From positions 1 through 20,970 of the forward strand of contig JAIQCW010000143.1 of NCBI GenBank assembly GCA_020283715.1: 20,970 nucleotides of DNA, read 5' to 3'. Shown in pieces: positions 1 to 20,931 of this stretch (positions within the stretch are counted from its first letter, which is position 1; the number at the start of each line of letters is the position of its first letter). The DNA is from Cytauxzoon felis. Its lineage: Eukaryota > Apicomplexa > Aconoidasida > Piroplasmida > Theileriidae. Position numbers and translations under genes: made by a program. The notes below the pieces were generated by a model. That model was given only the letters and a program-made list of their open reading frames with translations, was not told the DNA's origin and did no database searches.

Positions 1-108
1 AAATAGAGAAGGCCTCCACGGCGAGTGGAAAATAGTGATTGGACCTCAAGTGGGGCTGCAGGACGAAGAAAGGTGGAATAGCTGACGGTATGACTGACCT
101 CAGGTGGA
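1..108 (-). repeat. Mosaic repeat copy A (partial, window edge)
   Basis: It contains the reversed module GGCCTCCACGGCGAGTGG, a GGACCTCAAGTGG core, a CTGCAGGACGAAG end block and a final GACCTCAGGTGGA. It is cut by the window edge. Orientation is sense for minus-strand genes. It lies 24 bp beyond the stop codon of the 1703-codon ORF. Confidence 0.8.
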
Positions 109-131
109 TTGAGCTTCATATGATTATAAAA

Positions 132-3100
132 TTAGTTCATTTTAATGGTGAGGAGTTGTATATAATTGGTGGGTATATTGATAGAGGTGCTATTGAAGTT
201 GAAGTTGATGAATTTCATTGATTCATGTTTCGATTGGTATTTGTTGATATATTCTCTAGTGTATAAATTTGTGATTTTGCATTTAATTGTAACATTGTAA
301 AAGCAGTGTGTATATTTATAAAACCAGTATAATATTATTGTAAATATCATATGACTTTGAAATTTATATTCTGTTATATTCATATCATTAGCTTTATTTT
401 CTTTTATCTTCTTCTTTAATATCTTTAAACTATTTATCATATCCATTATCACTACATATTTCGGTACAGAGTGTATGAATATGGGGAACATGGGGAAAAG
501 AACTACTTGTAGATGAGTAGGATTGAATTGATTACAGCATACTAGTGTTAATTTTGATAATAGATGTAGTTTAGTATTATTGAATAGAAATCCATTGAAG
601 TGGTATCCTAGTGCATATGTTATGAAGATTGTTTTATCATTTCTATTGCCCAGAGAGTGTATACAATGGTCATTGTTGTTGTATCCTATTACGTTTGTAG
701 TTAAATAGTCGACATCTTCATAATCATTTGTAGATGTTACTGTTATCATATTGAGGAAGTTGCGATTGTTATGATTATTCAATACATTTAATACCTTCTT
801 ATTATTACAAGAAGATAATTCATACATTCTAGTTACCATTTGCCATGCTATAAATATACCCCTATCATCTAAATATGATTTATTTTCCCCCACAGCCTCA
901 TAATTTTGCCCAATAAATAATAACCTTGTTAAAAAATACCATATTTCCCTATAATCATCACTATTAAATATATTATACTCCAATTTTATCAAAAAATCCA
1001 TCAATGTCTTTATGGGGTTTATTTTTATCAATAAATATAAAATTGTGGGGCATCTTTTAAAAAAACACCATAAAATATTATTATTGATGAGATTTTCGAG
1101 ACAGAATCTGATGGGTAGTAATTTATTGATGGCATTTGTTGATTCGTCAGATAATAAACATGAATTATTGATATGTTGCGATATGATTTTATATAATTTA
1201 CAATTAATATGATCCAAAGGTAATTTAGAAGCATTATATAAACACTTGAAGAATACCGATAAAGTTGTATACAATTTAATTTTTATAATCTTAATATAAA
1301 GTGAATGAATATTATCCCCATATAATTTATTATAAAGTAGGGTTATATTAACAATATAATATAATAATTCCCAATATATGCGATCATTCGATAAACTATT
1401 AAAAAACTCCAGCCATTCATAATAATTAATTCTAATATCATGAGTTTTGCATTCATTATAGGGGCAAATAATAATATGGTAGACAATATTAGATATTATA
1501 AGATCGATAGCGGTACCGATTTTATATTTCCTTGTAAAATCACTTTGAGGTGATTTGAAGTTACATCTAAGATGATTGAGATTATTATAAACCTCATGTA
1601 CTTTAAAGTTCAATATATAATCGGAATATTCAATATTCATGTTATCAGTAAAATAGTCTCTGAGTAAATTCATATTAAGACTGGTTACCGCTACAATCAG
1701 TTCATCATCCTCAATATCCACAGTAGATACAACACTACACAATGAAGAATCAGAAGAAACCTCATCCACTACAATATCATCAATCACATAATCATCAACA
1801 TCAATAAATGTATCATCGCCCGGGTAAGAATCAAATCTTAACTCCATAATATCATATATATTATCATTCGAAAATGATTCAGAAGAGATCCAATCCCTAA
1901 CCTCATCTCCACCTTTCGTTGTCTTGCAGACAGCCTCTTTATTTACTTCCCCCTCCGCTTCCCTGAGATCAGCTACGGGTTCCACTTGAGGTCCAATGAC
2001 TACGCTTCCGCCACGATCTCCGGGAGTGGCTATACTCTTTAGAGATAGGTAATTAGAAGAGGCTCCACGCCTAGTGGGATCAGAGTTTATAACCTCAAGT
2101 GGAGAGCTGTCTGCAAGACCAACGGTGGTGGCGAGTGGAAGAGAGTTGGATTGGACCTCGACTGCAACCTTCGTCATGACATCTTCTGGTACAGAGTATG
2201 AGTTTGAGAATAGTGACGTTAATAATGTATTCCCGATATATTTATTGAAATAATCTGAAAGGTATAATAGGTGGTTATTATTCCTTATAATATGATTGAG
2301 GTTTAGGTATAATTCGGTGATGATAGCGAATGTTTGTATGATTATATATTTGAGCAATGGGTCATAACATATTTGTTCTTTCTTATCAACTATAGATGTA
2401 ATGCTCAGATATTCATCTGTATTAAATAAAAAATCATTCTTTAATGATGTAGATTCATCATTTTTCTTGATTTTAAAGCTTATATAATTTAATGATATGT
2501 TTGATATAACTGATATTTTACCCAATATGGTATGTTTAATCTCTTTTTGTAATCTATTCAAATTATTTATTTCAATACCTTTCAATTCTATTAATGTTGA
2601 TAGAAAAATCGATATTATAATATTTAATGTTATCAATACTTTATTTGTATGATAATTATATATCAAATTTATCATGTAATCTAATATTGTACGACCGAAT
2701 TCTATACTATTATTCAATATATAATTCAATACATCACTTGTCCCCATAAATGTAAAATTCATTGGCGGGTAAATTAATTGTGGGGATTTAATATCATGAT
2801 TTATAAAATGGGGTAATAAAATACCTTTGATAATGGGGTTATATTGTGTAAGTATAATAGTGGGGTATATGAAATTATTAATATCATATTTCATATGATT
2901 AATAATAGAATGATTGATATTATGATTATAGAATATCCAATCTAATAATATACAAGTTTTAATATTAGCTAATTCTAATGAATTATTATTACTATCCATT
3001 AAACTATATAACCAAACAATAAATTGACCAATGTTATAATAATCACCATTATAAATACCATTATAACTCAATAAAGTGAATCGAATAACATTTGATATCT

Positions 3101-5243
3101 TATCAATAGATATAGAATTCTTTGATACACGTAGATATTCATTCATATACCAATATAAATTATATACACATATACCAACAGAGCTCCTATTATTCATCCA
3201 TCTATCCGTAGGTAGATTCCTATTCTCCTTTAGACTGGAGGTCTTTACTTGTTTTCTAGTAGAGGTTGTATCTTTCCATTCACCTCCACTTGAAGTTATA
3301 ACGTTGTCTTCCTCTTGTAGACAGCTCTCCATTTGAGGTCTAGTCCTGCCGTCAGCTCTCTTATTTATTTCCCCCTCCGCTTCCCTGAGATCAGCTACGG
3401 GTTCCACTTGAGGTCCAGTACTACTCTTCATTCCACCTTCACCTCTGCCACGATCTCTGGGAGTGGCATCACCCTTTAGGGATAGGTAAATAGATGAGGC
3501 CTCCACGGCGAGTGGAACACTGGTTGTAACCTCAGGTGGAACAGCGAGTGGAGAAGAGTTGGATTGGACCTCAGGTAATGAGCTCACAGCAGGACCTTCA
3601 GTTGTAGTATCCGTTGGATTTGATTTATATTTATATCCTAGAATATTATAAATGAATAATGCTTCATTATGATTGAACGTATTGATGACGGTTGATTGGC
3701 ATTTGGCGAGTATTTGATCGAGTAGATTATCTTTTATGAAATTACAAATGGTGGGTGTGTTATCCATTAGATTGGAGTTATTCTTCAATAAATCTGACCA
3801 GATATTAAGTTTAATTGATTGTATACCGGAGATTGATGCTAATATTCTGATGGTATCATAATCCATTGACTTTATTATATTCTTTTTACCTTGATCATTT
3901 AACCAAATTTGTATTGCCAAATCTGTAGCTTCACCACGTATGAGTATCCTCGAGTCATCAGATGACTGTAGAATCAACTGTAAACAATTATGGAAGATAA
4001 TGAAACATGTATTATAGCATTGAATGAAAATATTACAATAACTTTTTAATGATCTCAATAAACTGATGACATAATTTGTATATCTCTTATTAACACCCAA
4101 TTTCAATGGGTTTATACATTTAATCAACTCCTGGATAACAACTGACCATGATTCTATTTCATGTGTTAGACAAGTTGGTAATATCCGTTCTATAAATCGT
4201 TCCAAATATATAATTTGTAACTCATAGCTCAATAATTGCGATGATTTGTTATAGAATAATGTCAACTGATCAGTTGAAAATTCTGGTAGAACTGATGTTA
4301 TAAGATTTATATAGCACTCATCTGTACATATCAAAGTATAATAACTCAACATAACCATGAATCCATCTAAGAATAATTCATCATAGCAGCATAAAATTTT
4401 TATACTCTCTAAATTATCTACAAATATACGCGAAGATATATCCCTTATGACTACACGGCGACCATGACCTTCTAAGAGCAAAAAATGCACAAAATTACAA
4501 TCATCCCATTTCACTGGTAGATATTTAAAATTAGTCGATGCTGATGTTCCCTCATCGAATGATACAAGAGATGGATCAAATGATTTAATGAATGAGTCAT
4601 TATCCCAAATAGGATTGGTGGACTCTGTAGTAATATCCAAAGATAGGCCTTCCTTGAAATTATTAACAAGATAAATAAATAATAGACTTTTATATACTTT
4701 ATTCAAATCCAAAATCAATTCATACTCTTCATTTTCCAATTTATAAAAACACCTAATACGGAATATGCTTTGTATACTGAAGCTTATCCTAGACATAATG
4801 GTATTGATCATATTTAGTACTGTCTTTACACGCTTTAAGCTGTAAATCAACCTATTAAAATCAAATTTATAATACGATAGTTGCTGTGTTATACTCAACT
4901 TATGCTTGACACCTGGATCCTTTTGTTGAATATTCTTTATATTCTGCTCCATATATAGAGAATTCATCATTGGCATCGTATTATATACCATTGGATGCAT
5001 CATATTCATCATATTATTCAATGGGTATAATGTATTGGTCATCATATTAGACATGGGCATCGATTGTTTTATAAAATTCAAACCCATTGGGTTCACAACC
5101 TCTTTAATCTTCTTCTTTTTCACCTTTTTCTTGGTAGTTTCTACCTTGATCGGCATAGTCTGATTCAAATATGGACCTAATAACCTAGGTGTACTTTCCA
5201 CCTTTACCTGCGATACACGCCCCCTCTTTACCGGACGCTCCAT
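132..5243 (-). CDS. Very large uncharacterised protein (1703 codons) carrying two in-frame mosaic repeats
   Basis: I do not recognise this protein. A single uninterrupted frame starts at the ATG at 5243, and the first 45 residues are basic (a KKKVKKKKIK run). Residues about 60-100 are Met- and Asn-rich. The remainder reads as mostly helical, Leu/Ile/Asn-rich sequence without a clear signal peptide or catalytic motif; a nuclear scaffold-type subunit is possible but is only a guess. An acidic Asp/Ser stretch lies near residues 1145-1190. Two repeat copies (3283-3577 and 1908-2163) are translated in the same relative frame, giving about 140 and 100 residues with blocks such as [12 protein letters not shown] and [16 protein letters not shown]; their composition differs from the rest. 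No GTAAGT/TTTYAG pair flanks them convincingly, so they may be exonic, although splicing cannot be excluded. A further partial repeat lies just past the stop, so the true C-terminus could lie outside the window. Confidence 0.75.
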   Translation of the reverse strand: MERPVKRGRVSQVKVESTPRLLGPYLNQTMPIKVETTKKKVKKKKIKEVVNPMGLNFIKQSMPMSNMMTNTLYPLNNMMNMMHPMVYNTMPMMNSLYMEQNIKNIQQKDPGVKHKLSITQQLSYYKFDFNRLIYSLKRVKTVLNMINTIMSRISFSIQSIFRIRCFYKLENEEYELILDLNKVYKSLLFIYLVNNFKEGLSLDITTESTNPIWDNDSFIKSFDPSLVSFDEGTSASTNFKYLPVKWDDCNFVHFLLLEGHGRRVVIRDISSRIFVDNLESIKILCCYDELFLDGFMVMLSYYTLICTDECYINLITSVLPEFSTDQLTLFYNKSSQLLSYELQIIYLERFIERILPTCLTHEIESWSVVIQELIKCINPLKLGVNKRYTNYVISLLRSLKSYCNIFIQCYNTCFIIFHNCLQLILQSSDDSRILIRGEATDLAIQIWLNDQGKKNIIKSMDYDTIRILASISGIQSIKLNIWSDLLKNNSNLMDNTPTICNFIKDNLLDQILAKCQSTVINTFNHNEALFIYNILGYKYKSNPTDTTTEGPAVSSLPEVQSNSSPLAVPPEVTTSVPLAVEASSIYLSLKGDATPRDRGRGEGGMKSSTGPQVEPVADLREAEGEINKRADGRTRPQMESCLQEEDNVITSSGGEWKDTTSTRKQVKTSSLKENRNLPTDRWMNNRSSVGICVYNLYWYMNEYLRVSKNSISIDKISNVIRFTLLSYNGIYNGDYYNIGQFIVWLYSLMDSNNNSLELANIKTCILLDWIFYNHNINHSIINHMKYDINNFIYPTIILTQYNPIIKGILLPHFINHDIKSPQLIYPPMNFTFMGTSDVLNYILNNSIEFGRTILDYMINLIYNYHTNKVLITLNIIISIFLSTLIELKGIEINNLNRLQKEIKHTILGKISVISNISLNYISFKIKKNDESTSLKNDFLFNTDEYLSITSIVDKKEQICYDPLLKYIIIQTFAIITELYLNLNHIIRNNNHLLYLSDYFNKYIGNTLLTSLFSNSYSVPEDVMTKVAVEVQSNSLPLATTVGLADSSPLEVINSDPTRRGASSNYLSLKSIATPGDRGGSVVIGPQVEPVADLREAEGEVNKEAVCKTTKGGDEVRDWISSESFSNDNIYDIMELRFDSYPGDDTFIDVDDYVIDDIVVDEVSSDSSLCSVVSTVDIEDDELIVAVTSLNMNLLRDYFTDNMNIEYSDYILNFKVHEVYNNLNHLRCNFKSPQSDFTRKYKIGTAIDLIISNIVYHIIICPYNECKTHDIRINYYEWLEFFNSLSNDRIYWELLYYIVNITLLYNKLYGDNIHSLYIKIIKIKLYTTLSVFFKCLYNASKLPLDHINCKLYKIISQHINNSCLLSDESTNAINKLLPIRFCLENLINNNILWCFFKRCPTILYLLIKINPIKTLMDFLIKLEYNIFNSDDYREIWYFLTRLLFIGQNYEAVGENKSYLDDRGIFIAWQMVTRMYELSSCNNKKVLNVLNNHNNRNFLNMITVTSTNDYEDVDYLTTNVIGYNNNDHCIHSLGNRNDKTIFITYALGYHFNGFLFNNTKLHLLSKLTLVCCNQFNPTHLQVVLFPMFPIFIHSVPKYVVIMDMINSLKILKKKIKENKANDMNITEYKFQSHMIFTIILYWFYKYTHCFYNVTIKCKITNLYTREYINKYQSKHESMKFINFNFNSTSINIPTNYIQLLTIKMN
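1908..2163 (-). repeat. Mosaic repeat copy B, in frame inside the large ORF
   Basis: Read on the minus strand it encodes, in order, a P-L-A-type lead, [37 protein letters not shown] and VNKEAVCKT. It carries the CTCTAAAGAG palindrome and the CCACTAGGCGTGG variant of the CCAC..GTGG module. It is entered and left without a stop in the host frame. Confidence 0.9.
3283..3577 (-). repeat. Mosaic repeat copy C, in frame inside the large ORF
   Basis: This sense-oriented copy is translated in the host frame as blocks [37 protein letters not shown] and INKRADGRTRPQ. Its palindrome is CCCTAAAGGG instead of CTCTAAAGAG, with both arms changed together. Extra ACCTCAGGTGGAACAG-type cores are present at its upstream end (3530-3577). 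Confidence 0.9.
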
Positions 5244-5508
5244 CCAGAAATATTACAGAAAATTAAATTATATTAAAGGGACATGATGTGAATTAATAAA
5301 GTGAGGTTGATTAGAGTAGTGAGGTATAATATATTAATGGGTATTAGTGTATGGAACACAATGTACACGACGGATGTACATATGAGAACAACCTGTATAT
5401 CCTATGTATATATAAAATCATTAAAATAACTACTAAACATGAAACAATAGAACTAAATGAATTAACTGACATGTAAATTAATATGGAAGAGATGGACGAA
5501 GTAAGAAA
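5244..5508. promoter_or_regulatory. Gap upstream of the large ORF and downstream of RPS3A
   Basis: 265 bp of AT-rich sequence with no ORF of note. It must contain the RPS3A 3' end and the promoter of the 1703-codon ORF, both on the minus strand. No mosaic repeat is present. Confidence 0.45.
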
Positions 5509-6730
5509 TTAATTTGCTTTAATTTCAGCAGTAAGTAAGTTCATAGCATTCTCAGATTCCTTAATCTTCATACCTCTACTAGTTTCTTCATCACCATCAT
5601 TATGTACTTCCATTAATTTAGTTACTGTAATGTCAATGTATAATTATTATTAGTCCTCAACTTACAATCAAATTTTGGCTTCTTTAATACTTTAACCTTA
5701 CGTATAAGTACATTTTGTAATGGAAATATTGATTTACATGCCTTCTCAATCTCTTTACCAATAGATTCAGGTATAATTTTCTTTACAAGTTCTCTAAGTG
5801 TACTATTTGATGCCTCATTATGCATAACAGTAGTCATCTTCTTATGTATCTGACGTATCTTTGATGTTCTAGCATAACATGTAGACTTCAATTGACCAGG
5901 ACGTCTTTTAGTATAACCAATACAAAACATCCTCAAATGATAACCATCCATAGTCCTTACATCAGTAAAAGCTTCAATTAATGAATAATTCTTTCTAATC
6001 AATGAACATAATTTATCACGAGTCACACTTGTACCATGAAAATCAGTCAAACAATTCCTACCCTGAACATCCTCACAACATAATTTAATCTTACGATACG
6101 CCTGATCCTCATCAGCATTCAAATCCGCCAAACTTATTTCATATATACGACCCTTTAAACCATCAATAGCCAATTCTATAAAAATATATTATACCATTAT
6201 AAACAAGGGAACAAATAATTAAGGATTTACGATCGACATTTATCCACCTGGGGTTACAACCACTGTTGGTCTTGCAGACAGCTATCCACTCGAGGTCCAA
6301 TCCACCTCTCTTCGTCTTGCAGACAGCTCTTATATTTACCTACCCGTAAACGGTAAAGCCACTCCCAGAGATCGTGGAGATAAACCCGTAGCTGATCTCA
6401 GGGAAGCGGAGGGGGAGGTAATTAAAATAGCTGACGGCAGGACTGACCTCAGGTGGAGAAAAGAGGTTGTAAACTAGATGGAATGAATCAATATTTAGTT
6501 AATAATTTTCCTCTTATTTGGAATGTTAATGGTGTATTTGGGAAGTTATTGTGGCAATTAAACTTACTTGTACCAATGGTCTTGGTGACTAGAGTTTGAC
6601 CAAAGTTTCTGACATTAAATATGGTTGGGGCTTTAAGATTGTACCATTCTTTACGTAGGAACGGATCTACGATCTTTTTCTTAGTACCCTTTTTACCCTT
6701 ACTAACTCTTTTATTCTTACCGACTGCCAT
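5509..6730 (-). CDS. RPS3A: 40S ribosomal protein eS1 (S3a)
   Basis: Core protein of the small cytosolic ribosomal subunit. Three exons fit the family end to end: 6730-6568 (54 codons plus 1 nt, starting MAVGKNKR and covering [15 protein letters not shown] and TLVTKTIGT), 6175-5666 (starting [18 protein letters not shown] and covering [14 protein letters not shown] and [10 protein letters not shown]), and 5624-5509 ([11 protein letters not shown] to the stop). Together they give 262 residues, the usual eS1 size. Splice sites are CAA|GTAAGT...TATAG and ATT|GTAAGT...TACAG, with codons completed across both junctions. Intron 2 is 41 nt. Intron 1 is 392 nt and carries mosaic repeat D in the antisense direction. 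The TTG at 6173 is internal, not a start. Identification is very secure. Confidence 0.97.
6243..6458 (+). repeat. Mosaic repeat copy D, in RPS3A intron 1 (antisense)
   Basis: It begins TCCACCTGGGGTTAC and ends GACCTCAGGTGGAG, giving near-inverted ends. Between them are a CTTGCAGACAGCT block, the central module with palindrome CCGTAAACGG, the ATCGTGGAG block and GTAGCTGATCTCAGGG. The palindrome differs from the common CTCTAAAGAG by two paired changes. It is antisense to its host gene. Confidence 0.9.
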
Positions 6731-7227
6731 ATTGATGAATTTAAGTATTAAGTGATTCTATATTAAACAATTTACAATTATGTTGAATTATAATGACATA
6801 ATTTATACTATTAAATATTAGAAATACACTTTGTTGAAATATACTACTATTAAACTAACTCTACTGCTTCATCAATCTCTACCCCATCCATTAATACCTC
6901 CCCACCCATTGATGGATGCGATACTGATATAGACATTTCGTTACTACAACGATGAATTATTAAAGAGGAATCCATTTATTCCTTTTCTATTAGTGTTATT
7001 TGAAGGAGATTCAGTTCCTGAACTTTACACATTTTAAATTTCACACCTCTATAACTCATCCCTCAATTTTCTACCTTAATCAGGACAGGTAATTTATATA
7101 AGACACTATAACGCTGTATAAAATCAAAAAATCTATCATTAAATCAATGGAATCTTGCATCATATTTAATGTATAAGTGGAATTACAACAAATTTATTTA
7201 TACATTACCCAACAATAATTAGATTCT
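6731..7227. other. Gap between RPS3A and TMA7 with one candidate micro-ORF
   Basis: About 500 bp of AT-rich sequence between the RPS3A start and the TMA7 stop. A 41-codon minus-strand ORF (6975-6850) starts MDSSLIIHRC and ends EIDEAVELV; it shows reasonable codon usage but no recognisable family. Further upstream on the same strand (about 6990-7150) short stop-free stretches include one reading RYSVLYKLPVLIK, which could be exons of a small multi-exon gene joined by short introns. I could not build a convincing model. The remainder should include the RPS3A promoter. Confidence 0.35.
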
Positions 7228-9377: not shown

Positions 9378-11042
9378 TCAATGCACTTTTGATATTATAC
9401 CAGAAGCTATTGTTCTTCCACCCTCACGTAACGCAAATCTCAAACCCTCATGTACTGGCATGTAATGCAACAGTTTAATAGTACAATGTACACTATCACC
9501 AGGAGCAGCCTATAAATGAAAAATGAATCAATGATGATATAAATAACTTAATTAATAATCATAAAATAGTTGCATGGAACTCTTCCACCTGATGTCCATC
9601 CTTTCCATTGCATGGAGCTCTTCTAATTACTTCCCCCTCCGCTTCCCTGAGATCAGCTGCGGGTTTTCCACTTGAGGTCCAGTACTACTCTTCATTACAT
9701 CTATACTTCCGCCACGATCTCTGGGAGTGGCTCCACTCTTTAGAGATAGGTAATTGGAAGAGCCACCACGGCGAGTGGAAGACTAGATTGTAACCTCAGG
9801 TGGAGAGCTCTCTGCAAGAGGAACAGAGGTGTATTGGACCTCGAGTGGAAGGTAATATTAGATGGATGTTACATATGAATGACATACCATGGGTACATTC
9901 TCCGGTAGATGTACAGAGCAGCTGATATCACCGGTTCTGATAAATGCTTGTGGACGATAGTTGGAGACGAATGCATTTTTTCTTCCTCCTTCTTCGTGTG
10001 TGAGAATGTACAGATCAGCATCGAATGATTCATGACATGTATACTTTCCGGGTTCGGTGATGACATATCCTCTGGTAATTTCATCTTTTTTGACATTTTT
10101 TAATAGTACACCGACTTGATCACCAGCTATTCCTTCACTTAATGTCTTCCTAAACATTTCTAATCCAACGCATGTACTTTTCTTCCCTGTCTTCTTACCA
10201 CCGATTATCTCGATTGTATCACCGGGTTTAATCTTCCCTTGTTCAATTCTACCTGTTGCAACAGTACCCTTCCCTGGTATTGACATTGCTTCATCTACAG
10301 CAATCAATAATGGCATATCACATTTCCTTTCTGGTGTATCTAAATAGCTATCACATGCGTTTAATAATTCTTTGATGGATTGTATAGATTGTGGATCATC
10401 AGCTATGGCTTTAGTAGCGGATCCTTTAATAATAGGGGTATTATCACCATCATATTTATATTCTGATAGTAATTCTCTAATTTCTAGTTCCACTAATTCC
10501 AACAACTCCTCATCTTCAACAAGATCCATTTTATTTAAAAATACTACCAATTTAGGTACACCAATCTGTTTAGCTAATAAAATATGCTCACGAGTTTGTG
10601 GCATTGGACCATCTGGAGCTGATACAACCAATATAGCTCCATCCATTTGCGCTGCACCTGATATCATATTCTTAACATAATCAGCATGACCTGGACAATC
10701 GACATGCCCATAATGACGTTTATCAGTTTCATACTCAACATGTGTAGCACATATAGTAATACCCCTTTTACGTTCTTCCGGTGCTTTATCTATAGCATCG
10801 TACGGTGTATACTCACCTATACCGGCATCACTACATACTTTTGTTAAAGCAGCCGTCAATGTCGTCTTTCCATGATCAACATGACCAATAGTACCGATAT
10901 TTAAATGCTCTTTATTACGTACAAATACACCAACAGCATAATTCCTAATAGCATTATACGATACATGGTCATAGAATCTCGCGATTCCATACCTACGATA
11001 AAATCCCACGCTCAAACGGACAAATAAACCACTACTAGACAT
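9378..11042 (-). CDS. tufM: Organellar (probably mitochondrial) elongation factor Tu
   Basis: Bacterial-type EF-Tu that delivers aminoacyl-tRNA to organellar ribosomes. Exon 1 (11042-9888, 385 codons) begins with about 43 residues rich in Arg, Ser and Tyr with no acidic run, consistent with a mitochondrial presequence. G1 is GHVDHGKT (53-60), G3 DCPGH (115-119), G4 NKMD (170-173) and G5 GSA. Domains 2 and 3 follow. Exon 2 (9509-9378) begins AAPGDSVHC and ends [14 protein letters not shown]. The junction ATG|GTATGT...TATAG|GCT restores the family sequence across domain 3, total 428 residues. The 378-nt intron carries repeat E. The stop lies 96 bp from the TMA7 start and the ATG only 39 bp from the next gene's stop. 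The apicoplast copy is normally encoded in that organelle, hence the mitochondrial assignment. Confidence 0.95.
9584..9850 (-). repeat. Mosaic repeat copy E, in the EF-Tu intron (sense)
   Basis: It has the full module order in sense direction: TCGAGGTCCAAT-type start, CTTGCAGAGAGCT, CCACTCGCCGTGG, CTCTAAAGAG, CCACTCCCAGAGATCGTGG, then GCTGATCTCAGGG. Compared with the copies inside ORFs it has small indels that break the shared reading frame (an extra A before the GTAGCTGATC-type block), as expected for intronic sequence free of coding constraint. Confidence 0.9.
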
Positions 11043-11081
11043 TATTCATCACTAATAATAAACATTTAAATAATTAATACA

Positions 11082-13382
11082 TTATTCATCAATAAATTCA
11101 TTATAGTTCCTACCATAAGGATCAAAGTCCAACATCCTCAACACGACATCCACCAGACCTAAAAGTTAAATTTAAATTAATATAATTAGCACTACATATT
11201 AATTATCATTTAATAAATGTTTTTTACATATCCATCACTAACAAAATTATAGCCGTTCCATCTGCAGGTCTCATCCAATACCTTCCACTCGAGGTATAAT
11301 CACTACCTTTACCTCTCCACGATCTCTGGGAGTGGCTCTACTCTTTAGAGATAGGTAAATAAAAGAGGCTCCACGCCTAGTGGAAGGAGAGTTGGATTGG
11401 ACCTCAGGTGGAGAGTTCTCTGCAGTAGAATGCAAGTTTGATGGCCATGTATATATACTTACGTGTACTTCTTTTTTCTTTAAGACTCGTTAATTCATCG
11501 ATGACTTTATTGTATGATAAATTTTCCTGAATGATATCTGGTGTAGTTGGAATTGTGCTTACGCTTGGTAATTTGAGTGTAATTAGGTGATAGTATACGA
11601 GTCCTAGACAGAATAGATCATTAAAGTGTAATAAATGTTTGATTTTATCCGCAAAATCATATTTTTCTACTTGATTTAATGCTTTATTTACTGGTGAAGT
11701 GTCTGTGGCCATTAATGGTACCTCTTCTTTCAATAGGATTAGCAGCTCTGGTGATGTGAATATTGACGGCTGTAAATATTCATTTTTGATCTTGAAACAT
11801 CTCTCAATAAATAGGGCTGTAATTTCAGTAGTCATTCTCTACGAGACTTACACTCTGGACAAAAGTCTGTAAGATACAATTTGAAGGTGTCATTTGATAT
11901 TAATACGTTTGTCATTTTAATATTGTTATGAGTCTTGTCATTCCTCTTTAAATAATCCAACCTGATGGAGATGATATGAATCTGATGGAGTTCATTGCAA
12001 TAGGGAAAGAATTTCTCATCATTCCCTCCTTGCTGCATTCTATTTCATATCGCTATACTCAACCACTTCTACTTACAATTTGAGATGTTCCTTGATGTTA
12101 TCCAGTAATAATTGATCATCCAATTGATATAATTCACCAAGATTTGGTAAATTGTAAATGTAATTATAAATTGAGCCATTGATCATCTCAGGGCTGTAGA
12201 TTTTTTTAAGCCTTATATAATAAACTTGCCATGTATATAATATACACCATATATCAGATTTGTACTGTCTACTCTTCCTTAATATCTTCTTCACACTAAC
12301 AATCTGAACAGATCCTATCGTATCATCGAAAAAAACATCATTGTCTATCCAATAATCCTCCAAAAGACTCTTGATTACACAGACTATTGAAATATGATGT
12401 AAATGGAATATACTTAATCACGATGTTTGTCCACCTGAGGTCGGTCCTGCCGTCAGCTCTTTTAATTACCTATCTCTAAAGAGTAAAGCCACTCCCAGAG
12501 ATCGTGGCGGAAGTATAGTTATTGGACATCAAGTGGAACCTGGAAGCAATCTACAGGAGCTGGAAGGGGAAGTAAATAGAAGAGCTGTCTGCAAGACGAA
12601 GAGAGATTGGACTGGACCTCATGTGTAAAAATAGTGATTGGACCTAGGTGGAGTACTTACTATGTTCATTGTGGACAAACCTTCTTGTTGTAGATTTTCA
12701 ATTTGATCTTTTAGATCATTGGGGTTATTTTTATCATTTACGACGTTGTTATTCCTTATAATGTATGGATTTAATAATAATTTGGCGTAATAAATGACAT
12801 TATCCTCTTTTTCATCCTTTGCACAACTGTCTTTCCCTTCTTCATCTTGGTCATCCTAAGACATTAATGAACCATCACTTCATGTAATAAACCTCATCTT
12901 CACCGGTAAGTTCTTTCAATTCCAACTCAGCCTTAGAGATAAATATTAAACCTTAAGTGCTTCATCTTACTTTATCAATCTTCTGACGAGTCTTATTAAT
13001 GAGTATATCCAATTGCGATATTTCACCCTCAATATCATACACCAATAGATCATTGTCTTGTACAATCTCAGAATTCAATTCATCTTGCACATTTTCCATA
13101 CGTCGTTCTAAATGCGATAAATTCCTACGATATTTCTTCCTAAACGCAGAGATATATTGAAAATCACTATGGGACTAACAAATCTTGATTCAATCCCTTT
13201 ATAATCTCAGATTTTATACACTTTACACGCCAACAATCACCAATAGGATCGATTCCTAAAGGTAAATTGAAATGAATAAAGAATTTTATAAACTTCAATG
13301 AACCTTGAACCAATTCTAGTGGTTGATATTCCTTTGGCCATTCAATTTCCTCATCATCCAAGTTAGCGGATGACTTGAACAT
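11082..13382 (-). CDS. Coiled-coil protein with C-terminal degenerate kinase domain (pseudokinase)
   Basis: Proposed eight-exon gene: 13382-13222, 13166-12971, 12931-12893, 12855-12661, 12369-12077, 12039-11852, 11816-11463, 11158-11082; the sum is divisible by 3 and gives about 500 residues. Residues 54-135 are a Lys/Glu/Gln-rich likely coiled coil. The C-terminal half keeps kinase landmarks in order: HNNIKMTN in place of HRDxKxxN (about 332), TDFC in place of DFG (about 352), SPE in place of APE, DLFCLG for the helix-F Asp, and LRMLDFDP near the end. The catalytic Asp is replaced by Asn, so phosphotransfer is doubtful. Introns are 35-55 nt except two of about 291 and 304 nt that carry repeats G and F. 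The first junction (donor GTGTAT) and the acceptor of the fifth exon (CAAG| or, with donor GTACTC, AATAG|) are uncertain; the 71-codon first ORF might be a separate gene. Confidence 0.65.
11264..11424 (-). repeat. Mosaic repeat copy F (short), in the last intron of the pseudokinase gene
   Basis: A shortened sense copy with a CTGCAG/GGACCTCAGGTGGA end, the CCACTAGGCGTGG variant module, CTCTAAAGAG and CCACTCCCAGAGATCGTGG; the GTAGCTGATC module is missing. The host intron is 304 nt (11462-11159). Confidence 0.9.
12430..12653 (+). repeat. Mosaic repeat copy G, in the fourth intron of the pseudokinase gene (antisense)
   Basis: It runs from TCCACCTGAGGTCGG to GGACCTAGGTGGAG, with CTCTAAAGAG, CCACTCCCAGAGATCGTGG, the alternative module GAAGCAATCTACAGGAGC and AGCTGTCTGCAAGACG. 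On the host strand the TCCACCTAGGTCC end lies 8 bases inside the GTAAGTAC donor. Confidence 0.9.
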
Positions 13383-13549: not shown

Positions 13550-14598
13550 TCACTCTGAATCTGAATCATCAAAAGAGACCGAATTAATAGCAGAAGTAAT
13601 TTGACCTATAAATAAAAATATAATAAAATCAGATATCAATCATGCCTGTTCCTTTCCATGATGAACGTTTCTTCTTAGCCTTCTCAGTCTTGAACATTTT
13701 ACCCTTTACATGAGTCAAATCATGAGCAGCCTTAGATACGAAATTATCACTCCTTGTCTTTAAAGAATTAACACGTAACTCCTCCTTCTCTATCCGATTT
13801 AACCATTCCTCACTCTTGACCCTAGTAAATGGAACACCTGAAGGAGAAAATTTTTGAGAATGAGAAATGATTTATGAAACAAAAGTATTGATATAACTGT
13901 TATCAACCTGAGATCAAATCTACCTTGCATTCTCTTGCAGAGAGCTCTCCACCTGAGGTTACAACCCTATCTTCCACTCGCCGTGGAGCCTCTTCCAATC
14001 ACCTATCTCTAAAGAGTAGAGCCACTCCCGGAGATCGCGGCGGAAGTTAGTGGTTGAACCTCAAGTGGAGAAGCCGGAGGCGATCTACGGGAGCTGGAGG
14101 GGGAAGTAAATAGAAGAGCTGTCTGCAAGACGACCTCGGGTGGAAGTGGAAAAGAGAGTATGATTGGATCTAGGTGTAGTGGGCTAAATCTAGGACGCAG
14201 ATCCCTTTATGTGAACGTACCGGATTGTTGTGTGACGGTATCATCGTTTATTATTGAGCTTTTGGTGGAGCTGTTGGAATTTTTATCATCTTCATTTGAA
14301 TTTGATGCTTCTAGTTTCTTCTTTTTATGTGCTTTCTTGTAAATTGACTTTATTACTTTATTGAAATCTGCTTCTTTAATCTCAGGCGGTACAAACTCAT
14401 CCTTGAGCTGTAGGTGTAAATGAATTGATGAAATTGATAAGATTGAAGTTAGAATAATATAGAAAGATAAATTAAACTTACTTTATCACAATTAAGTTCT
14501 TTACGTAATTTCTTGGCGGTCTTCTTTAGACCGTGATCCGATAATATTTTAACAACTGCATAGAGAACCGGTGTAGGTTCATAAGATGTAACTCCCAT
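13550..14598 (-). CDS. Nopp140/SRP40-like nucleolar phosphoprotein (LisH + SRP40-C)
   Basis: Homologue of NOLC1/SRP40, nucleolar chaperones of snoRNPs and rRNA synthesis. Exons are 14598-14482, 14407-14221, 13837-13646 and 13605-13550, giving 183 residues. Exon 1 is a LisH motif (LYAVVKILSDHGLKKTAKKL). Exon 2 is a short Lys- then Ser/Asn/Asp-rich linker; family members usually have a much longer Ser/Lys repeat region. Exons 3-4 form the SRP40-C domain (GVPFTRVKSEEW, then KGKMFKTEKAKKKRSSWKGTG, then QITSAINSVSFDDSDSE). The last intron appears to be GC-AG: ACAG|GCATGA...TATAG, 40 nt, which rejoins the conserved tail; unspliced reading stops at 8 codons' distance (GTGMIDI). Intron 2 (383 nt) holds repeat H. 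A short, apparently shared promoter region (about 190 bp) separates it from the divergent RPP21-like gene. Confidence 0.88.
13928..14176 (+). repeat. Mosaic repeat copy H, in intron 2 of the SRP40-like gene (antisense)
   Basis: Module order: CTTGCAGAGAGCT, TCCACCTGAGGTTAC, CCACTCGCCGTGGAG, CTCTAAAGAG, CCACTCCCGGAGATCGCGG, ACCTCAAGTGGAG, the alternative module GGCGATCTACGGGAGC, AGCTGTCTGCAAGACG, then ACCTCGGGTGGA and a degenerate GGATCTAGGTG end. Confidence 0.9.
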
Positions 14599-14784: not shown

Positions 14785-16980
14785 ATGACAAAAGTTGATC
14801 TTGAGAATGATAAAGAGTCTCCTATGACTCTTAGAATCAAATATTTAACCAACGCAGCGTTGGCATTATCACAGAAGTTACCAACTGTATCGCATTATTT
14901 CATGTAAGTTGATGGTATATTCTCATAGTTCAATCAATTTCCTATAGGAGAACTGCACTTTGTTTCTTGAAGGACACTAAAACAGGTGAGGAATTGATGT
15001 AATTATGGATGTTTCAAGGGTGTGTTGTCTGTTTATCTCATTACTTTACACTATTTTAATGGAAATGTGTGGATTCTAGATGTTGTCCTGATTTTGTTTT
15101 TTTTCCAGGAGTCGTCATGGCTGACAGTCTTAAGAAGACTACCGTAGCATATAAATATACTGGAATTGATGGTTATAATACCAGAACTAAAGGTGCTAAT
15201 TGGCCTGCTAATGCCACAGATGTATCTAATAGTGGTAATGCAGTAGATGATGCTGATCTTGGTACTGGAAATGATATACATTTAAAGATGGCTGATGATA
15301 CTACACCTCCTACAGTAGAGGTTAAAGATGATACAGGTTCTGATACTGTTCTTAAAGAGCAAGGACTAGTAGAGGTGTTGAAATTGATGCACTAAGTATA
15401 TAATGGCTCAAAATTCCATCAGATGCATCAAATAAGGCTATTATTAATACAGCTCTCTTCAAATACAAATATACACCTGGAACTGGGGTGACTATTCAAT
15501 TGTATAGATATAAACTTGACGAACAGGCTGGCGGTGGTACTAAAAAATGGCAACAGGAAGGTGCTGCTATTAGTTCTAGTACTCCTCTTGAAGATACTAA
15601 TCTACAAGATGGGGATCATATAAAAACTGCGAGTGCAGCTGCCGCAAATGCTCCAAATTTTGTAGCACCTGAATTTACTACTGCTAATGGTTATACTAGA
15701 CCAGATGATATAATCAGGGCAAACATTATTGTATCATTTGGGATCTTCTCTCTTGTCATCATCTTCAGTTTTATACCTTTACTCAACCATCACATGCCAC
15801 AAGTTGACTTTGAGTACCTCTACATTACAGTACTGATCATGAATATAAATTAGGGCCTGGAGGAACAGGTCCAGGGAATTATGGAACATTTGTAAATAAT
15901 GCCGGAACGGATGTGAAGGTGACGGTCTGTAGGGAATTAGAAAAACTACACACCCACATGACATCCAAAGGAAATTACACAACGAATACAGGTGGTGGTG
16001 CTTCTATTCCTTATAATACTACTAGTGGTTTCGGACTGAAAGTTACCACCGCTATAGGCAAGGTTGATGACGCCCAGACTTCTACTGTTGTAACAGATGC
16101 GGATGGGCTGAAAGCTGCTCTAAGTACCAGTGGTACAATAAAACAGGTTGTTGATGACTGGGCTACCATTACACATATTGGTGGTCAACCTAAAACTGAT
16201 ACTTCTAATAAAAATGCCAGTGACGCAATTGCTGCGATAACAACATATACAAATGATACTAATAATGCACGAAGTACTATAGGTGATCATACAACTGCTG
16301 CTAACGCTGCTCCTGTAAAGGCTGGAAATTGGAATACCAAAGGTGGTAATAGATGGTGGTGGCATTTAATTGTTTGGACATTCGGTATTTCATCTATACT
16401 AATTATCATCTTCTATGAACTAATAAGAATTGTAAAGCATGATGAATACTCACAAAATGAACAACCCTTAATAATTAAACCCTCCAACTCCTATACCAAA
16501 CGCACCATATTTCCAATCAAAACCCACCTCACATAATGGGGCAATTTATTAAACAACCCCATAATTAAATTTCATGATTTAATAAATTATTATTATAGAA
16601 GTTGCAAAAAGTCAGTATTTATATATTTGTAGTCATTGTGGTACTTTAAAATTGCCATGTATAAATACTAGAGTTAGATGTGAGAAGACGACTAAATCAC
16701 AGAGGCGTAGATGTAAGTATTAAATTGAATTATATAATGACCTTATTAGTAAGAAGAAGATATAAAGTACAAAAGAGTAAAGAAAAAGGATCGATTGTTA
16801 AAATGGATACATTAATATATCATAAGAATGTAATGGTAAGTGATTAAAGAGAATCTTCTACATGAATAACAATTTTGATAGACTTATACATGTAAATTAT
16901 GTAATCATCGGATTTTAATTCCTGGGGTAATAAAACATATAAAAAAGAAGAATAAAAAATTGATTATATTATCAAAATAG
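14785..16980 (+). CDS. RNase P/MRP protein subunit, Rpr2/RPP21-like, split around a nested gene
   Basis: Zinc-ribbon subunit of RNase P/MRP, acting in pre-tRNA/pre-rRNA processing. Five phase-matched exons are 14785-14903, 14948-14985, 16599-16712, 16750-16835 and 16882-16980, giving 151 residues (human RPP21 is of similar size). The helical N-terminus MTLRIKYLTNAALALSQKLP parallels the family's RxxyLyqAA helix. The zinc ribbon has its first pair in ICSHC (exon 3), a basic SQRRRLRRR segment, and its second pair in YTCKLCNHR (exon 5). Donors are GTAAGT or GTGAGG; acceptors end TATAG, TTAG or GATAG. Intron 2 is 1613 nt (14986-16598): exon 2 ends with one base (G) that joins AA of exon 3 to make a Glu codon, giving KDTKTEVAKSQ. 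It contains a same-strand membrane-anchored gene. The stop lies 18 bp from the stop of the convergent CDK-like gene. Confidence 0.8.
15117..16536 (+). CDS. TM-anchored, repeat-containing surface-like gene nested in the RPP21-like intron; frame interrupted
   Basis: Three open blocks of uniform composition (Thr, Asp, Gly, Ala, Asn-rich): 15117-15395, 15404-15853 and 15835-16536. Each has a related start (VAYKYTGIDG, FKYKYTPGTG, HEYKLGPGGTG), suggesting three diverged repeats of one extracellular domain. Block 2 ends in a TM segment (IIVSFGIFSLVIIFSF) and block 3 in another (WWWHLIVWTFGISSILIIIF) with a basic tail. A phase-correct 86-nt intron (15337-15422) can join blocks 1 and 2. No good donor joins block 2 to block 3, so these may be alternative C-termini, two adjacent genes, or a damaged gene. 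A short upstream ORF at 15005 (MDVSRVCCLFISLLYTIL) looks like a signal peptide and may be the first exon. Family not recognised. Confidence 0.55.
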
Positions 16981-16998
16981 AGGGAAAAATTTTTTAAT

Positions 16999-18843
16999 TT
17001 ACTTCAACCATTTATGTTTTAATGCCTCTTGAGCTGTTATACGCTTCTCTGGATTTAATGTTAGCATCCTATATTTACAAAAATTCCATACACTAATTAA
17101 TTAACATACCTAGATAACAAATCTATACAATCTAGATCAACCACCTTGTTATAACGTCTAAATATCTCACTAAATGATGAATCACCATAAACCAATGGCA
17201 ATTTAAAACTCTGTAAATTTATATATCCAATATAATTATTATTACTTTTCTAATCACCTGAGGTCTAGACCAGTGTTCCACTCGCCGTGGCGGCTCTTCT
17301 ATTTACCTCCCCTTCCAGCTCCCATAGATCGCTTCCAGGTATTCCACTTGAGGTCTCCACCTGAGGTCCAATAACTACCTTCTCAACTGCCACGATCTCT
17401 GGGAGTGGCTCTACTCTTTAGAGATAGGTAATTGGAAGAGCTGTCTGCAGGACGAAGAGAGTTGGATTGGACCTCAGGTGGAACGACTACTATTATGTTC
17501 TAGATGAGTCGGACAAACCATGAATGGTAGTGAGTTGATTTCTGGCCAATCATTATGATTGGGTAATCCGATTGTATTGAGTATAGAGATAAGAAGTGGG
17601 AATTCTGATTTTTCATTGAATAATGGTTTTCCTATAATAAGTTCTGTGATTATACATCCTAATGACCAGATATCGATTGGATATGAGTAATTATAATTTC
17701 CTAATAATAATTCTGGTGCTCTATAATTTAATGTGACAACATCTGGTGTTAGATGACTATTAATAACATTTAGATTATTGATACATGATAGATTAATAGA
17801 TTTATCTGTTCTACTTAATCCAAAATCGGATATTAATATACGTTTTATAATAGGTGTTTTAATCTGAAGATATTAAATGATGATTAAAAAATTTTATATA
17901 TAAATATACATACGATATTATAATAATATATAAAATTTGTTGTCTTATTATTAATATAATTGTTATTAGAATTTGTTATAGGATTAGATAATATACAAAG
18001 GATATTATCAGGTTTTAAATCTCTATGTATAATCCTTTTAGAATGATAATATGCAATACCATTTATTAATTGTATTGTTATTTGTTTAACTATAATTAAT
18101 GGTAATCCATTTGGATAATATTTTTCTATATAATTTTTTATATTACCACCATTAATATTAGGGAATGATAAATAAATACGATAATTACCTATATAAATTG
18201 TATTTAATTGTATAATATTATCATGTTTTAATATAGATAATGAATATATTTCTCTTAATATAATAGGTGTTATACCTATATTTTCATCTAATAATATACG
18301 TTTAAATGCATATTCATTATTATTATAATCATTTTTTACTAAATATACTTTACCATATGAACCTTCACCTAATGTATTTATATATCTCCAACCATAAACA
18401 TTAACTATATCATAATCATTTTTTAAATAAATTATATTAATATTTTTTATATTAATTAATTTATTAATATTTTTTATATATGATATAGGATAAGGAAGAC
18501 AATTTTTTAATTCTATAGGCTTAATTGTATTTATAGTCTTACCCATCAACTCGTTAAATTCTATATCTATCTTATCATCATCATTTATATTTATAATATT
18601 TGTAGTAATACATTTCTTTTTTTTAGATAATGAACATGATATTTTTATATTATTCTTGTAATTATATAATAACATTTTAAGTTTCCTATCTGTTATTGTC
18701 AATAGATTTCCTACATTTATAGATTTACTATCTATAATCCTACGCCCATGAGCGAAATTATTGACTTTTGAACCCCTATCTACCATCAAATTGCCATCTT
18801 TAAATGACATCATTGAAGTGGAGGATAATTTATCATCAATCAT
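16999..18843 (-). CDS. CDK-like serine/threonine protein kinase
   Basis: Four exons (18843-17914, 17863-17519, 17210-17110, 17068-16999) give 481 residues. A 155-residue N-terminal extension with no recognised domain precedes the kinase. Visible motifs: glycine loop GEGSYGKV (160-ish), AFK with Lys 181, a PxxxREI cyclin-contact helix (TPIILREI, Glu 198), HRDLKPDN (273-280), DFG (323-325), TLNYRAPELLLG (354-365), DIWSLGC and DLLSRMLTLNPEKRITAQEAL near the end. All catalytic residues are present, so it should be active; the activation segment between DFG and APE is longer than in typical CDKs. The CMGC/CDK group is clear, the exact CDK is not. Introns are 50, 308 and 41 nt; the 308-nt one carries repeat I. 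Parts of exon 1 encode Asn/Ile-rich inserts, common in AT-rich apicomplexans. Confidence 0.92.
17254..17482 (-). repeat. Mosaic repeat copy I, in intron 2 of the CDK-like gene; internally rearranged
   Basis: Sense-oriented overall: it starts TCCACCTGAGGTCCAATCC (host strand), then contains CTCTAAAGAG, CCACTCCCAGAGATCGTGG, ACCTCAGGTGGAG, the alternative module GCGATCTATGGGAGC and CCACGGCGAGTGG. The AGCTGTCTGCAGGACG block sits at the opposite end and in opposite orientation compared with copies G, H and J, and the CCAC..GTGG module is also relocated, so modules have been shuffled and inverted. Confidence 0.9.
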
Positions 18844-18910
18844 CTAGTGAAGTATGAAGTAGAGAAGTATGAAGTAGAGAATAATTTATCATCAATCGTC
18901 TAGTGAAGTA
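18825..18910. repeat. 30-bp direct repeat spanning the CDK-like start codon
   Basis: The 30 bases at 18825-18854 recur at 18881-18910 with one mismatch, 56 bp apart. The mismatch lies in the initiation codon: on the coding strand ATG in the genic copy, ACG in the upstream copy. Between them is a duplicated GAAGTATGAAGTAGAGAA-type unit. Confidence 0.85.
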
Positions 18911-19268
18911 GTGATTTATAGAAAAGTATAGATGTATAGTGAAGTAGTGATGTAGAAATGTAGAGAATAATCTAGAAAAAATAGAGAGAAATATATTCCA
19001 TTGTAAGAATAAGATATAGAAATTTCTCTATAGACAAAACACATTTAAATTTAATGGATACACTAAAATGTCATTTAAATTTAATTTAATGGATGCATTA
19101 AAATGATTAAAATATCATTTAAACTTTATATTAAAGATGAAAATAGAATCTTCTCAACGATAGTAGACTCATCTCATCGTGCCGATGACTAGTAGATGGA
19201 AATATAAATAAAATGTAGTTTCTTCCATAGATTATATAATTTAAATATATAAAATAAATTAATTTAAT
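18844..19268. promoter_or_regulatory. Divergent intergenic region between CDK-like kinase and IPK1
   Basis: About 425 bp of very AT-rich sequence separating two divergent starts, so it should contain both promoters. No specific promoter motif was recognised. It holds short local duplications next to each gene start (annotated separately) and several TAGAGA/GAAGTA-type low-complexity runs. Confidence 0.5.
19042..19125. repeat. Short AT-rich direct repeat upstream of IPK1
   Basis: The block CATTTAAATTTAATGGAT followed by ACACTAAAATG (19042-19070) recurs with a 5-base expansion and small changes at 19072-19105, followed by a third partial CATTTAAA copy at 19116. Function unknown; it may simply be slippage in the 5' flank. 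Confidence 0.7.
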
Positions 19269-20931
19269 ATGAATTTAATACCATTAGGTGCCGGAAATTT
19301 TTATTTTGTGTATCGCATAGATACTAACATGTCTAAGCTATATAACTTAGATGTAAGTAGGTGTAATATAGATGATAGAGTATCATATATATCTAAATTA
19401 CCTAAGTTTTGTGTATTAAAATTACCTAGAGATACTATTGATTATAATATTTTCAAATCTAAATTATTATATTATAATGAATTCAAAAGATTAACTGAAG
19501 ATTATTTAGTTGATGTATATAATTTAAATATACCAAACATGATTCCATGCCTAATAGATTATAAAAGAGCACAAGAATTGAGGAATATAATGGAAGATGT
19601 TATAATTAAAGATGTAAAGGATAATCGTTTTCTAAAAAAAAGAATTGATTTCAATAAAGATTTAAATATGAATTCATTAATTAATATTAATATAAATGAA
19701 TTTAAATTGTTAAATGATTTGAATGATGATATAGATCTCCTTAATTTTGAACTATGCTTCATAGTAGAAGATACTTTACACCCATATAATTTAAATAATT
19801 ATAATGATAATATGATGCACATGTCTATAGAATTGAAATTAAAATGCGGACTTATACAATTTAAAGGCATTCCTAACATATTCCAACTCAAACAATTGAA
19901 AAATGCATATGATAAATCACAAATTAATTATACCAATCATAACAATTGTATATGTAATCCACCTGAGGTCCAATACAACTCTTCCTTCCCAGTCGCTTCT
20001 CCACCTGAAGTTACAACCACTGTTCCACTCGCCGTGGAGGCCTCTTCCAATTACCTATCTCTAAAGAGTAGAGCCACTCCCAGAGATCGTGGCAGAAGTA
20101 TAGTTAAGGATGTAACCTCAAGTGGTAGTGGAAAACCCGTAGCTGATCTCAGGGAAGCGAAGGGGGAATTAAATAAAGGAAGCTGTCTGCAAGACAAAGG
20201 AGTTAAGGATGTAACCTCGAGTGGAGAAAATGGGGTAATAGAGGGTTATGGGGATAAAAAAACCTCACAATGATAATAATCCCCACAATTCCACTATTGT
20301 ACCAGATGATTATGAGTACAATACCTCAAGTGGAATACCCGAGAGCGATCTATGGGAGCTTGAGGGGGATGTAAATAGAGGGAGCTGTCTGCAAGACGAA
20401 CGATGTAGTGATATTGGACCTCAGGTGGAACCCGTAGCTGATCACAGGGAAGCGAAGGGGAAGATAAATAAGAAGGCCACCACGGCGAGTGGGAACGTCA
20501 AGACGACTTCAGGTGGAGTTGTAAATGTGATATCTCGTTATAATCCTTGTAGATTATATGGTATGGATTATGTTATTGTATATGATGAGTTGAATAATTT
20601 ATGTATAAATCCTCAGAATAATATGCGTGTATTTATTGGTATATATGAGGTTGATCCATTAAGATTAATAGATGATGATAGATTAGGATTATTAACTAGG
20701 ATGATAATAGATAATAAATTATTATTTAAATATATATTAAATTTACAATCATTATCATGTGGTAATGAATATATAGGTTATATATTATATGAATGTATAA
20801 ATATAATTAATAAAATATTAAAATTTAATATAATAGAGAATATAAATATAAATGATGCATTAATAAAATTTAAATTAAAATATAAATTAATTAATATAAA
20901 TCCATATAAATTGAAGAAAATTTTTTTATAA
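19269..20931 (+). CDS. IPK1: Inositol-pentakisphosphate 2-kinase (IPK1 family), interrupted by two mosaic repeats
   Basis: Makes inositol hexakisphosphate by phosphorylating the 2-position of InsP5. N-terminal part: LGAGNFYFVY (6-15) as nucleotide loop, VLKLPR (49-54) as the conserved V-L-R/K strand, and IELKLKCG (187-194), the counterpart of the family motif EIKPKCG, here with Leu for Pro. C-terminal part: VISRYNPCRLYG followed by NPQNNMRVFIG, matching the family's S-Y-P-DLF and PQNNLxIF blocks. Between these halves lies about 560 bp of repeats J and K. Two readings exist. As an intron, donor AATT|GTATAT (after 19947) or ATAT|GTAATC (after 19953) to acceptor CTTCAG (20512) is phase-correct and gives 365 residues or slightly more. 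As exon, the frame is open through J and K except for a one-base break at an A7 run (20256-20262). The intron reading restores family continuity and is preferred. Confidence 0.85.
19959..20226 (+). repeat. Mosaic repeat copy J (most complete), in IPK1
   Basis: Sense copy with the order: CCACCTGAGGTCCAAT, CCACCTGAAGTTAC, CCACTCGCCGTGGAGGCC, CTCTAAAGAG, CCACTCCCAGAGATCGTGG, ACCTCAAGTGG, CCCGTAGCTGATCTCAGGG, AGCTGTCTGCAAGAC, ACCTCGAGTGGAG. It is stop-free in the IPK1 upstream frame and encodes the same peptide blocks as copies B and C. Confidence 0.92.
20319..20518 (+). repeat. Mosaic repeat copy K, in IPK1, two module variants in tandem
   Basis: It carries the alternative module (peptide PESDLWELEGDVNRG) and then the standard module (EPVADHREAKGKINK), each followed by or preceded by ACCTCAAGTGG/ACCTCAGGTGG cores, then CCACGGCGAGTGG. 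Its last core, ACTTCAGGTGGAG, supplies the candidate 3' splice site of the IPK1 intron (CTTCAG at 20507-20512). Confidence 0.88.

Follow-up and report, generated by a model that had tools for sequence, protein, structure and literature searches.

A high-copy family of GC-rich hairpin modules in the nuclear genome of Cytauxzoon felis, probably palindromic selfish DNA, with copies read in frame in coding sequence

The stretch of Cytauxzoon felis DNA analysed here, referred to as the window, is 20,970 nt long (positions 1–20970 of contig JAIQCW010000143.1, C83 in our numbering) and carries eleven copies, A to K, of a mosaic repeat lying within and between genes. A preliminary description had proposed eleven copies sharing a limited set of blocks; in agreement with this, self-BLAST delimits eleven intervals in which the blocks follow a largely fixed order, namely inverted CCACCTGAGGT / ACCTCAGGTGG, CCACTCGCCGTGG, CTCTAAAGAG, CCACTCCCAGAGATCGTGG, GATCTCAGGG or GATCTACGGGAGC, GGAGGGGGAAGTAAATA and AGCTGTCTGCAAGACGA. 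The letters P, B, L, C, D, F, G, T and U given to the modules are our own labels. Read in sense, the modules typically run [P] X L C p (D or F) G X′ p [T p]. At least three modules (B, t or u) can take the X position interchangeably, and X′ (b, T or U) is the reverse complement of one X type.

Four of the eleven window copies fall within called coding segments, where they are in frame and free of stops. Copies B (tPBLCpDGT, 1908–2159) and C (PBLCpDGUpT, 3307–3576) are on the minus strand inside the open reading frame (ORF) 132–5252(−), while J (PPBLCpDGTp, 19958–20225) and K (pFGTpDGb, 20323–20496) are on the plus strand in ORFs 19263–20273(+) and 20242–20931(+). The latter two ORFs, which differ in frame and hold one in-frame element each, overlap at 20242–20273 within one apparent plus-strand gene, and an intron or a frameshift may lie there between J and K. 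Copy E (PtPBLCpDGp, 9583–9850, minus strand) is in the sense orientation in an intron (about 9511–9889, judged by eye) of the EF-Tu gene, the product of which shares 87% identity with Theileria equi and 86% with T. annulata over 90% of the query. Three plus-strand copies are antisense between minus-strand coding segments: D (PtPtCDGUp, 6243–6459), likely in an intron, G (PuLCpFGT, 12430–12625) and H (tPBLCpFGTp, 13929–14145). Copy F (PBLCp, 11283–11424, minus strand) falls inside a called minus-strand coding segment in host frame f1, which is not the frame of the element, and is putatively intronic. Copy I (PtLCppFGbp, 17255–17484, minus strand) adjoins the minus-strand coding segments 17488–18837 and is classed as convergent by our simple gene caller. 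Finally, copy A (plus strand, 1–53) is a 3′ part with b and p modules, whose last p-like block ends at about 107 when judged by eye. The window contains no Rfam family at the gathering threshold and no tRNA.

We extended the analysis to one assembly of the genome (8,623,106 bp, or 8.62 Mb, in 181 contigs), of which a sample of 220,970 bp was read base by base (contig C9 1–140000, contig C4 1–60000 and the window; 2.6% of the genome). Contig C9 was picked for its high number of matches, and the sample is therefore richer in elements than the genome average. Self-BLAST of the sample delimited 143 elements with a median length of 222 bp and a total of 30,555 bp. Their GC content is 50.5%, as compared with 29.8% outside and 32.3–33.5% for the three sampled stretches as a whole, which bears out the earlier remark that the copies are richer in GC than their surroundings. 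Four elements lacking an anchor motif were left out of the orientation and frame counts, leaving 139 oriented elements, and 29 further genomic loci were used solely in the pairwise comparison of copies. The C-module 19-mers CCACTCCC[A/G]GAGATCGTGG, that is CCACTCCCAGAGATCGTGG and CCACTCCCGGAGATCGTGG, have 1,114 and 1,375 exact sites in the genome (2,489 in total), and the same patterns read backwards have none. Recurrence of the element is thus not due to chance, and the blocks, for which a genome search had been suggested, are not confined to the window. The sample holds 49 + 45 = 94 exact 19-mers, the 49 of the A type comparing with 28.5 predicted from the genome mean. With the factor 2,489/94, the genome would hold about 3,800 elements, which amount to about 0.81 Mb and about 9% of its length; these estimates carry the enrichment of the sample with them. 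The family is real, abundant, structured and partly exonic.

The internal structure was studied on 111 copies selected by the C motif, whose L–C blocks align with no gap; 93 of the copies do not belong to the in-frame class described below. In the C hairpin 18 of 19 columns are nearly invariant and the remaining one is split between 56 G and 55 A; in the 93 copies diversity is likewise at most 0.06 in 18 of the 19 columns. Outside C, variable sites mostly alternate between common states, and alleles found no more than twice amount to 0.9% per site. The L, t and B stems keep their pairing through compensatory swaps. At L columns −14/−7 we counted T–A in 77 copies, C–G in 33 and another combination in one (normalised mutual information 1.0), and at −13/−8 C–G in 89, G–C in 18 and others in four. 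The t stems read GTCT/AGAC (17), CTCT/AGAG (7) or CCAT/ATGG (4), the B stems GCC/GGC (31) or GGC/GCC (10) with three mismatched, and the D and F modules, compared by eye, have swapped stems. As regards wobble pairs, which bear on DNA versus RNA, the eight L and C stem pairs examined contain 9 sense G–U and 7 A–C cells, two outer L pairs being excluded as not Watson–Crick.

Association between sites is short-ranged. The median normalised mutual information is 0.09 within 5 bp and 0.02–0.06 beyond 10 bp, with a shuffled median of 0.03, so that beyond about 10 bp it is near the shuffled level, as expected from the exchange between copies that had been proposed. The multi-base L haplotype with G–C at −13/−8 is combined with either state at +8 (7 A, 11 G) and with each of the three X types, and site-by-site mutation instead of shuffling is disfavoured by its presence on all backgrounds. 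The choice of X and X′ is independent (69 elements, p=0.55), and near-identical stretches between copies tend, by eye, to end at module junctions. Stem covariation, near-free assortment and breaks at junctions together indicate that the small hairpins are conserved units exchanged between copies. We also considered long-range pairing of the arms, which two single-strand folds favour (z −2.5 to −3.0); however, X and X′ match in 21 of 69 elements, not above chance, and the spacer columns do not covary (86 elements, counts judged by eye), so local hairpins are preferred. Two long composites with duplicated units were observed in contig C9, at 121687–122177 and 122975–123569 (BCpDGpUppDGpUp and PBLCPBCFGTppDGTpTP), and suggest growth by internal duplication.

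Clean P and p ends, most of which read TCCACCTGAGGT...ACCTCAGGTGGA or close variants, were found in 37 of the 139 oriented elements, and many copies begin or finish in other modules. The inverted motifs, the occurrence in both orientations and the dispersed palindromic character all agree with the preliminary description. No target-site duplication was detected in the 37 clean-ended copies, for which the mean best word shared between flanks is 2.14 (2.16 in shuffled pairs); one of the 37 shares 8 bp between its flanks, and of 25 fixed offsets tested, the best 3-bp case occurred 3 times where 0.9 were expected. The clearest individual sign of copying is a pair of copies in one gene of contig C9, at 28746 and 30414, which are 97% identical over 315 bp, lie 1.7 kb apart and have different flanks. 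A separate recent duplication was seen in contig C4, where a 335-bp inverted pair (22099–22433 and 48797–49131) is 99% identical and its printed borders carry no element modules.

Coding segments were called with a simple codon-usage model written for this analysis, with the elements masked, and so do not derive from transcripts. On these calls, 38 of the 143 elements lie within coding segments, 68 between segments of the same strand, 26 in convergent gaps, 10 in divergent gaps and one at an edge. Elements are denser between convergent segments (1.79/kb, 26 in 14,541 bp) than between divergent ones (0.53/kb, 10 in 18,992 bp; p=0.0006). There is no strand preference between same-strand segments (33 antisense, 32 sense, 3 unknown). 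Where a same-strand gap has a single element, 92–965 bp of other DNA remain (5th–95th percentile of 51 gaps; limits are approximate and some gaps are intergenic), and the elements thus seem to lie within introns rather than to make them.

Beyond what had been described before, elements are inserted in frame into exons in one strand and one frame. Of the 38 elements in coding segments, 23, which belong to 18 segments, use the sense frame s2, an excess over the 1/6 expected by chance (p=1.5e-9 if elements are counted as independent), and all 23 are open throughout the element. Around C, the non-coding copies have stops in 8 of 1,738 codons of s2, as compared with 98 of 1,817 and 106 of 1,817 in the other sense frames; in the matching frame at D/F, stops occupy 15 of 1,660 codons. 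The shared sequence is therefore open in s2, and non-coding copies often lose this openness, which is no proof of selection. With the same scaling as above, roughly 600 copies would lie in exons.

The encoded segments are rich in Gly, Ser, Glu and Pro, one example starting with PPEV. Ten host ORFs were scanned against Pfam; four had no family and six matched, to a kinesin, an MFS transporter, a CAF1B/HIR1 propeller, a Saf4/Yju2 factor, a CAF1 ribonuclease and a FAINT protein. The element lies within the CAF1 match, which takes up 422 residues to cover 206 positions of the profile. In the Saf4/Yju2 (CWC16) protein, a minimum of 21 insertion columns have a gap in every one of the eight aligned piroplasm orthologues. 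An AlphaFold model of CWC16 built from nine sequences has a mean predicted local distance difference test score (pLDDT) of 48 and about 31–34 in the insert, so that the low confidence of the insert proves little. The element peptide had no match at E≤0.001 in public proteins among the 8,000 candidates sharing most words, a search covering proteins of about 293–931 aa only.

The published antigen cf76 also carries an element. Its forward primer (PMC3748084) has one exact genome match, at 6543 of contig C114, and its internal primer GATCGTGGCGGAAGTATAGTCACTG, which has 9 exact sites in the genome, matches the same strand at 7224. The element occupies about nt 531–782 after the ATG (locus L052, C114:7074–7324) in the s2 frame; two published cf76 primers fall within it, and the internal one is placed 681 nt after the ATG, the C-module triplets GAT CGT GGC running from codon 228 on. 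According to that study of 2013, cf76 is a single exon whose full 2,172-bp ORF and 720-bp and 828-bp fragments were amplified from cDNA, and it was sequenced from 11 isolates (PMC3748084). The genome predicts the same fragments (681 + 39 = 720 and 1,509 − 681 = 828). The locus covered stops short of the end of the ORF. As the cDNA fragments match the prediction, the cf76 copy stands in a transcript-derived reading frame. The same study gives 723 aa for the genome isolate and about 706 aa for most other isolates (PMC3748084), and it is possible that this difference is an element-length polymorphism. The paper's single use of the word "repeat" refers to a tandem repeat of 30 bp in the C-terminal region of cf76 (PMC3748084).

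We searched the genome for enzymes that could move the family. Y1_Tnp, DDE_3, rve, DDE_Tnp_4 and MULE had no match with positive controls, hAT, PiggyBac and others lying outside the search, and Helitron (Helitron_like_N) had no match with a silent control. RVT_1 matched at one locus, in a 1,010-aa open frame of contig C56 (73693–74436), which may be telomerase. As these searches read frames regardless of introns and used prokaryotic controls, a split gene could be missed. The claim that the repeats are non-autonomous and that no transposase is encoded thus gains the five families without a match, and is qualified by the silent Helitron control, the RVT_1 locus and the disregard of introns. The possibility that the blocks are fragments of an autonomous element found no instance in the 2.6% of the genome read base by base.

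Altogether, we consider it probable that the repeats are a high-copy, nuclear, non-autonomous palindromic selfish element of C. felis, built as a chain of local GC-rich hairpin modules; its selfish nature and its spread by hairpin-dependent copying are the most likely account of the data. In such a scheme, copies would arise and be homogenised when single-stranded or broken DNA invades or switches between copies, a process that could be carried out by a host enzyme or an unrecognised one rather than by a cut-and-paste transposase. The open frame may persist because insertions into exons are thereby tolerable, and selection would remove other orientations and frames from exons, as well as insertions into promoters. 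Several observations weigh against this interpretation. The near-invariant C hairpin gives no covariation signal, and its invariance in non-coding copies could mean a host function. The u module (21 copies, GTCC/CGTC) has no t-type stem, eight further t-like stems are mismatched (GTCC/AGAC 5, CTCC/AGAG 1, AACT/AGAC 1, GTCT/AGAT 1), and some site pairs more than 10 bp apart are still associated above the shuffled 95% level. Within coding segments 15 of the 38 elements are not in s2 (five in sense f1, two in sense f0, eight antisense) and are putatively intronic; among non-coding elements of at least 180 bp with a C module, only 14 of 63 are fully open in s2. That a shared sequence should have one of its six frames open is not in itself unlikely. 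The rest of the CWC16 insertion, including its last part, aligns with linker residues that vary among orthologues, and transcript support is limited to the published cf76 statement. Mobility is argued from dispersal, one near-identical pair and absence in the CWC16 orthologues; the searches brought up no copying enzyme, and no empty site was seen at the DNA level.

Other explanations were weighed against the same observations. The repeats could be miniature inverted-repeat transposable elements (MITEs) derived from a DNA transposon, now lost or not recognised, whose terminal inverted repeats would be TCCACCTGAGGT, as the clean inverted ends of 37 of 139 oriented elements and the balanced orientation between same-strand exons (33 antisense, 32 sense) would allow. 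We find this rather unlikely, since those 37 copies have no target-site duplication, many others start or end with different modules, DDE_3, rve, DDE_Tnp_4 and MULE have no match, and the internal stems covary and shuffle, which is not required of MITEs. In addition, a 2022 survey, "Mobilome of Apicomplexa", saw no class II elements anywhere in the phylum and dropped its own candidate MITEs; it describes long interspersed nuclear element (LINE)-like elements in T. equi and some Babesia. Of the two affinities first suggested for the family, the palindromic one is hence retained and the MITE-like one is weakened. Dispersed sites with a host function, for instance in chromatin, replication or RNA processing, which are selected and homogenised by gene conversion rather than selfish, would explain why the C hairpin is near-invariant in 93 copies outside the in-frame class, why private changes are few (0.9% per site) and why divergent gaps are depleted (p=0.0006). 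However, the few private changes also fit recent copying, and elements placed in coding sequence, in same-strand gaps in both orientations and in convergent gaps have no fixed relation to genes, some being inside unrelated proteins, which makes this explanation unlikely.

An RNA-mediated origin, as introners or as short interspersed nuclear element (SINE)-like copies made by reverse transcriptase, appears very unlikely. Many copies are apparently intronic between same-strand exons and one RVT_1 locus is present; yet that locus may be telomerase, no duplications flank the copies, there is no strand preference between same-strand exons, and one-element gaps keep 92–965 bp of other sequence (with approximate exon limits). 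Assembly artefact or foreign DNA is hardly credible, although GC content departs by 20 points from the surroundings: the copies occupy many sites with differing flanks where inspected, and two cf76 primers fall in the element of a gene that is reported as amplified from cDNA and sequenced from 11 isolates (PMC3748084). The C pattern has no match in viral contigs, and its 20-mer has one match in a prokaryote genome collection, in a Gemmatimonadetes contig, which looks like chance. A broader claim, which we put forward tentatively and regard as possible rather than probable, is that the family represents a new class of eukaryotic nuclear mobile element, whose hairpin modules are copied and recombined as units without a dedicated transposase, are translatable in one frame whatever the module order and are able to spread through exons; it would have introduced probably disordered stretches into the proteins of one parasite, several hundred of them, among which is an antigen published as a vaccine candidate.

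The family appears to have been overlooked so far. Among the titles and abstracts listed for open-licence papers (the top matches where hits were many), none reported such repeats in Cytauxzoon or other piroplasms. Theileria-type genomes are described as compact genomes in which transposable elements have not been found, and "Mobilome of Apicomplexa" lists none in C. felis, T. parva, T. annulata or T. orientalis; it mentions one unknown repetitive element of Theileria parva in RepBase. One mosaic repeat making up about 9% of the genome, with about 600 exonic copies, would overturn this picture for C. felis and, if true, would offer a natural experiment on the tolerance of eukaryotic proteins to insertions. 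The covariation, shuffling and frame data also provide a means of testing how palindromic selfish DNA is copied. In practice, gene models and antigen or primer designs for C. felis can include the repeat, and primers or antibodies directed at the element could cross-react, because the cf76 internal primer already has nine exact genome sites.

Compared with known systems, the family resembles MITEs in being short, apparently non-autonomous and high in copy number, with inverted ends in part of the copies, and differs from them in its lack of target-site duplication, the absence of a transposase in our searches, its variable ends and its shuffled inner hairpins. PARCEL (palindromic amphipathic repeat coding elements) is a dyad-symmetric coding sequence believed to spread inside genomes and found as tandem 25-residue amphipathic repeats in ORFs many of which are membrane-targeted (PMC2996958). 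Compared by description, the present family likewise has coding sequence with dyad symmetry; unlike PARCEL, it is made up of dispersed insertions, found in proteins of several kinds and encoding a different peptide. The yeast mitochondrial GC clusters are described as GC-rich palindromic units of constrained structure that undergo merger and shuffling, GC42 being 42 nt long with AG target nucleotides (PMC4478555). The present elements share with them GC-rich hairpins with constrained stems that are shuffled as units, as seen for L, t and B and by eye for D/F, though not for C and u. They differ from these organellar clusters in forming longer chains, in having no duplication seen, in being read as protein in some genes and in being nuclear: the contigs that hold them are 122–145 kb long with nuclear-type genes, which does not match mitochondrial residence. 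Rickettsia palindromic elements (RPEs) are palindromic repeats of about 150 bp inserted in frame in unrelated genes with a conserved peptide, with 44 insertions first reported in R. conorii (PMC10969869). Likened by description, the present family also enters protein genes in frame with a conserved peptide (23 of 38 elements, and cf76); in contrast to the bacterial RPEs, it is nuclear and eukaryotic, counts thousands of copies with a median of 222 bp, is a modular chain of hairpins and also lies between exons. By analogy, the family works like both the Rickettsia palindromic elements and the mitochondrial GC clusters, a likeness of behaviour rather than a claim of membership in either.

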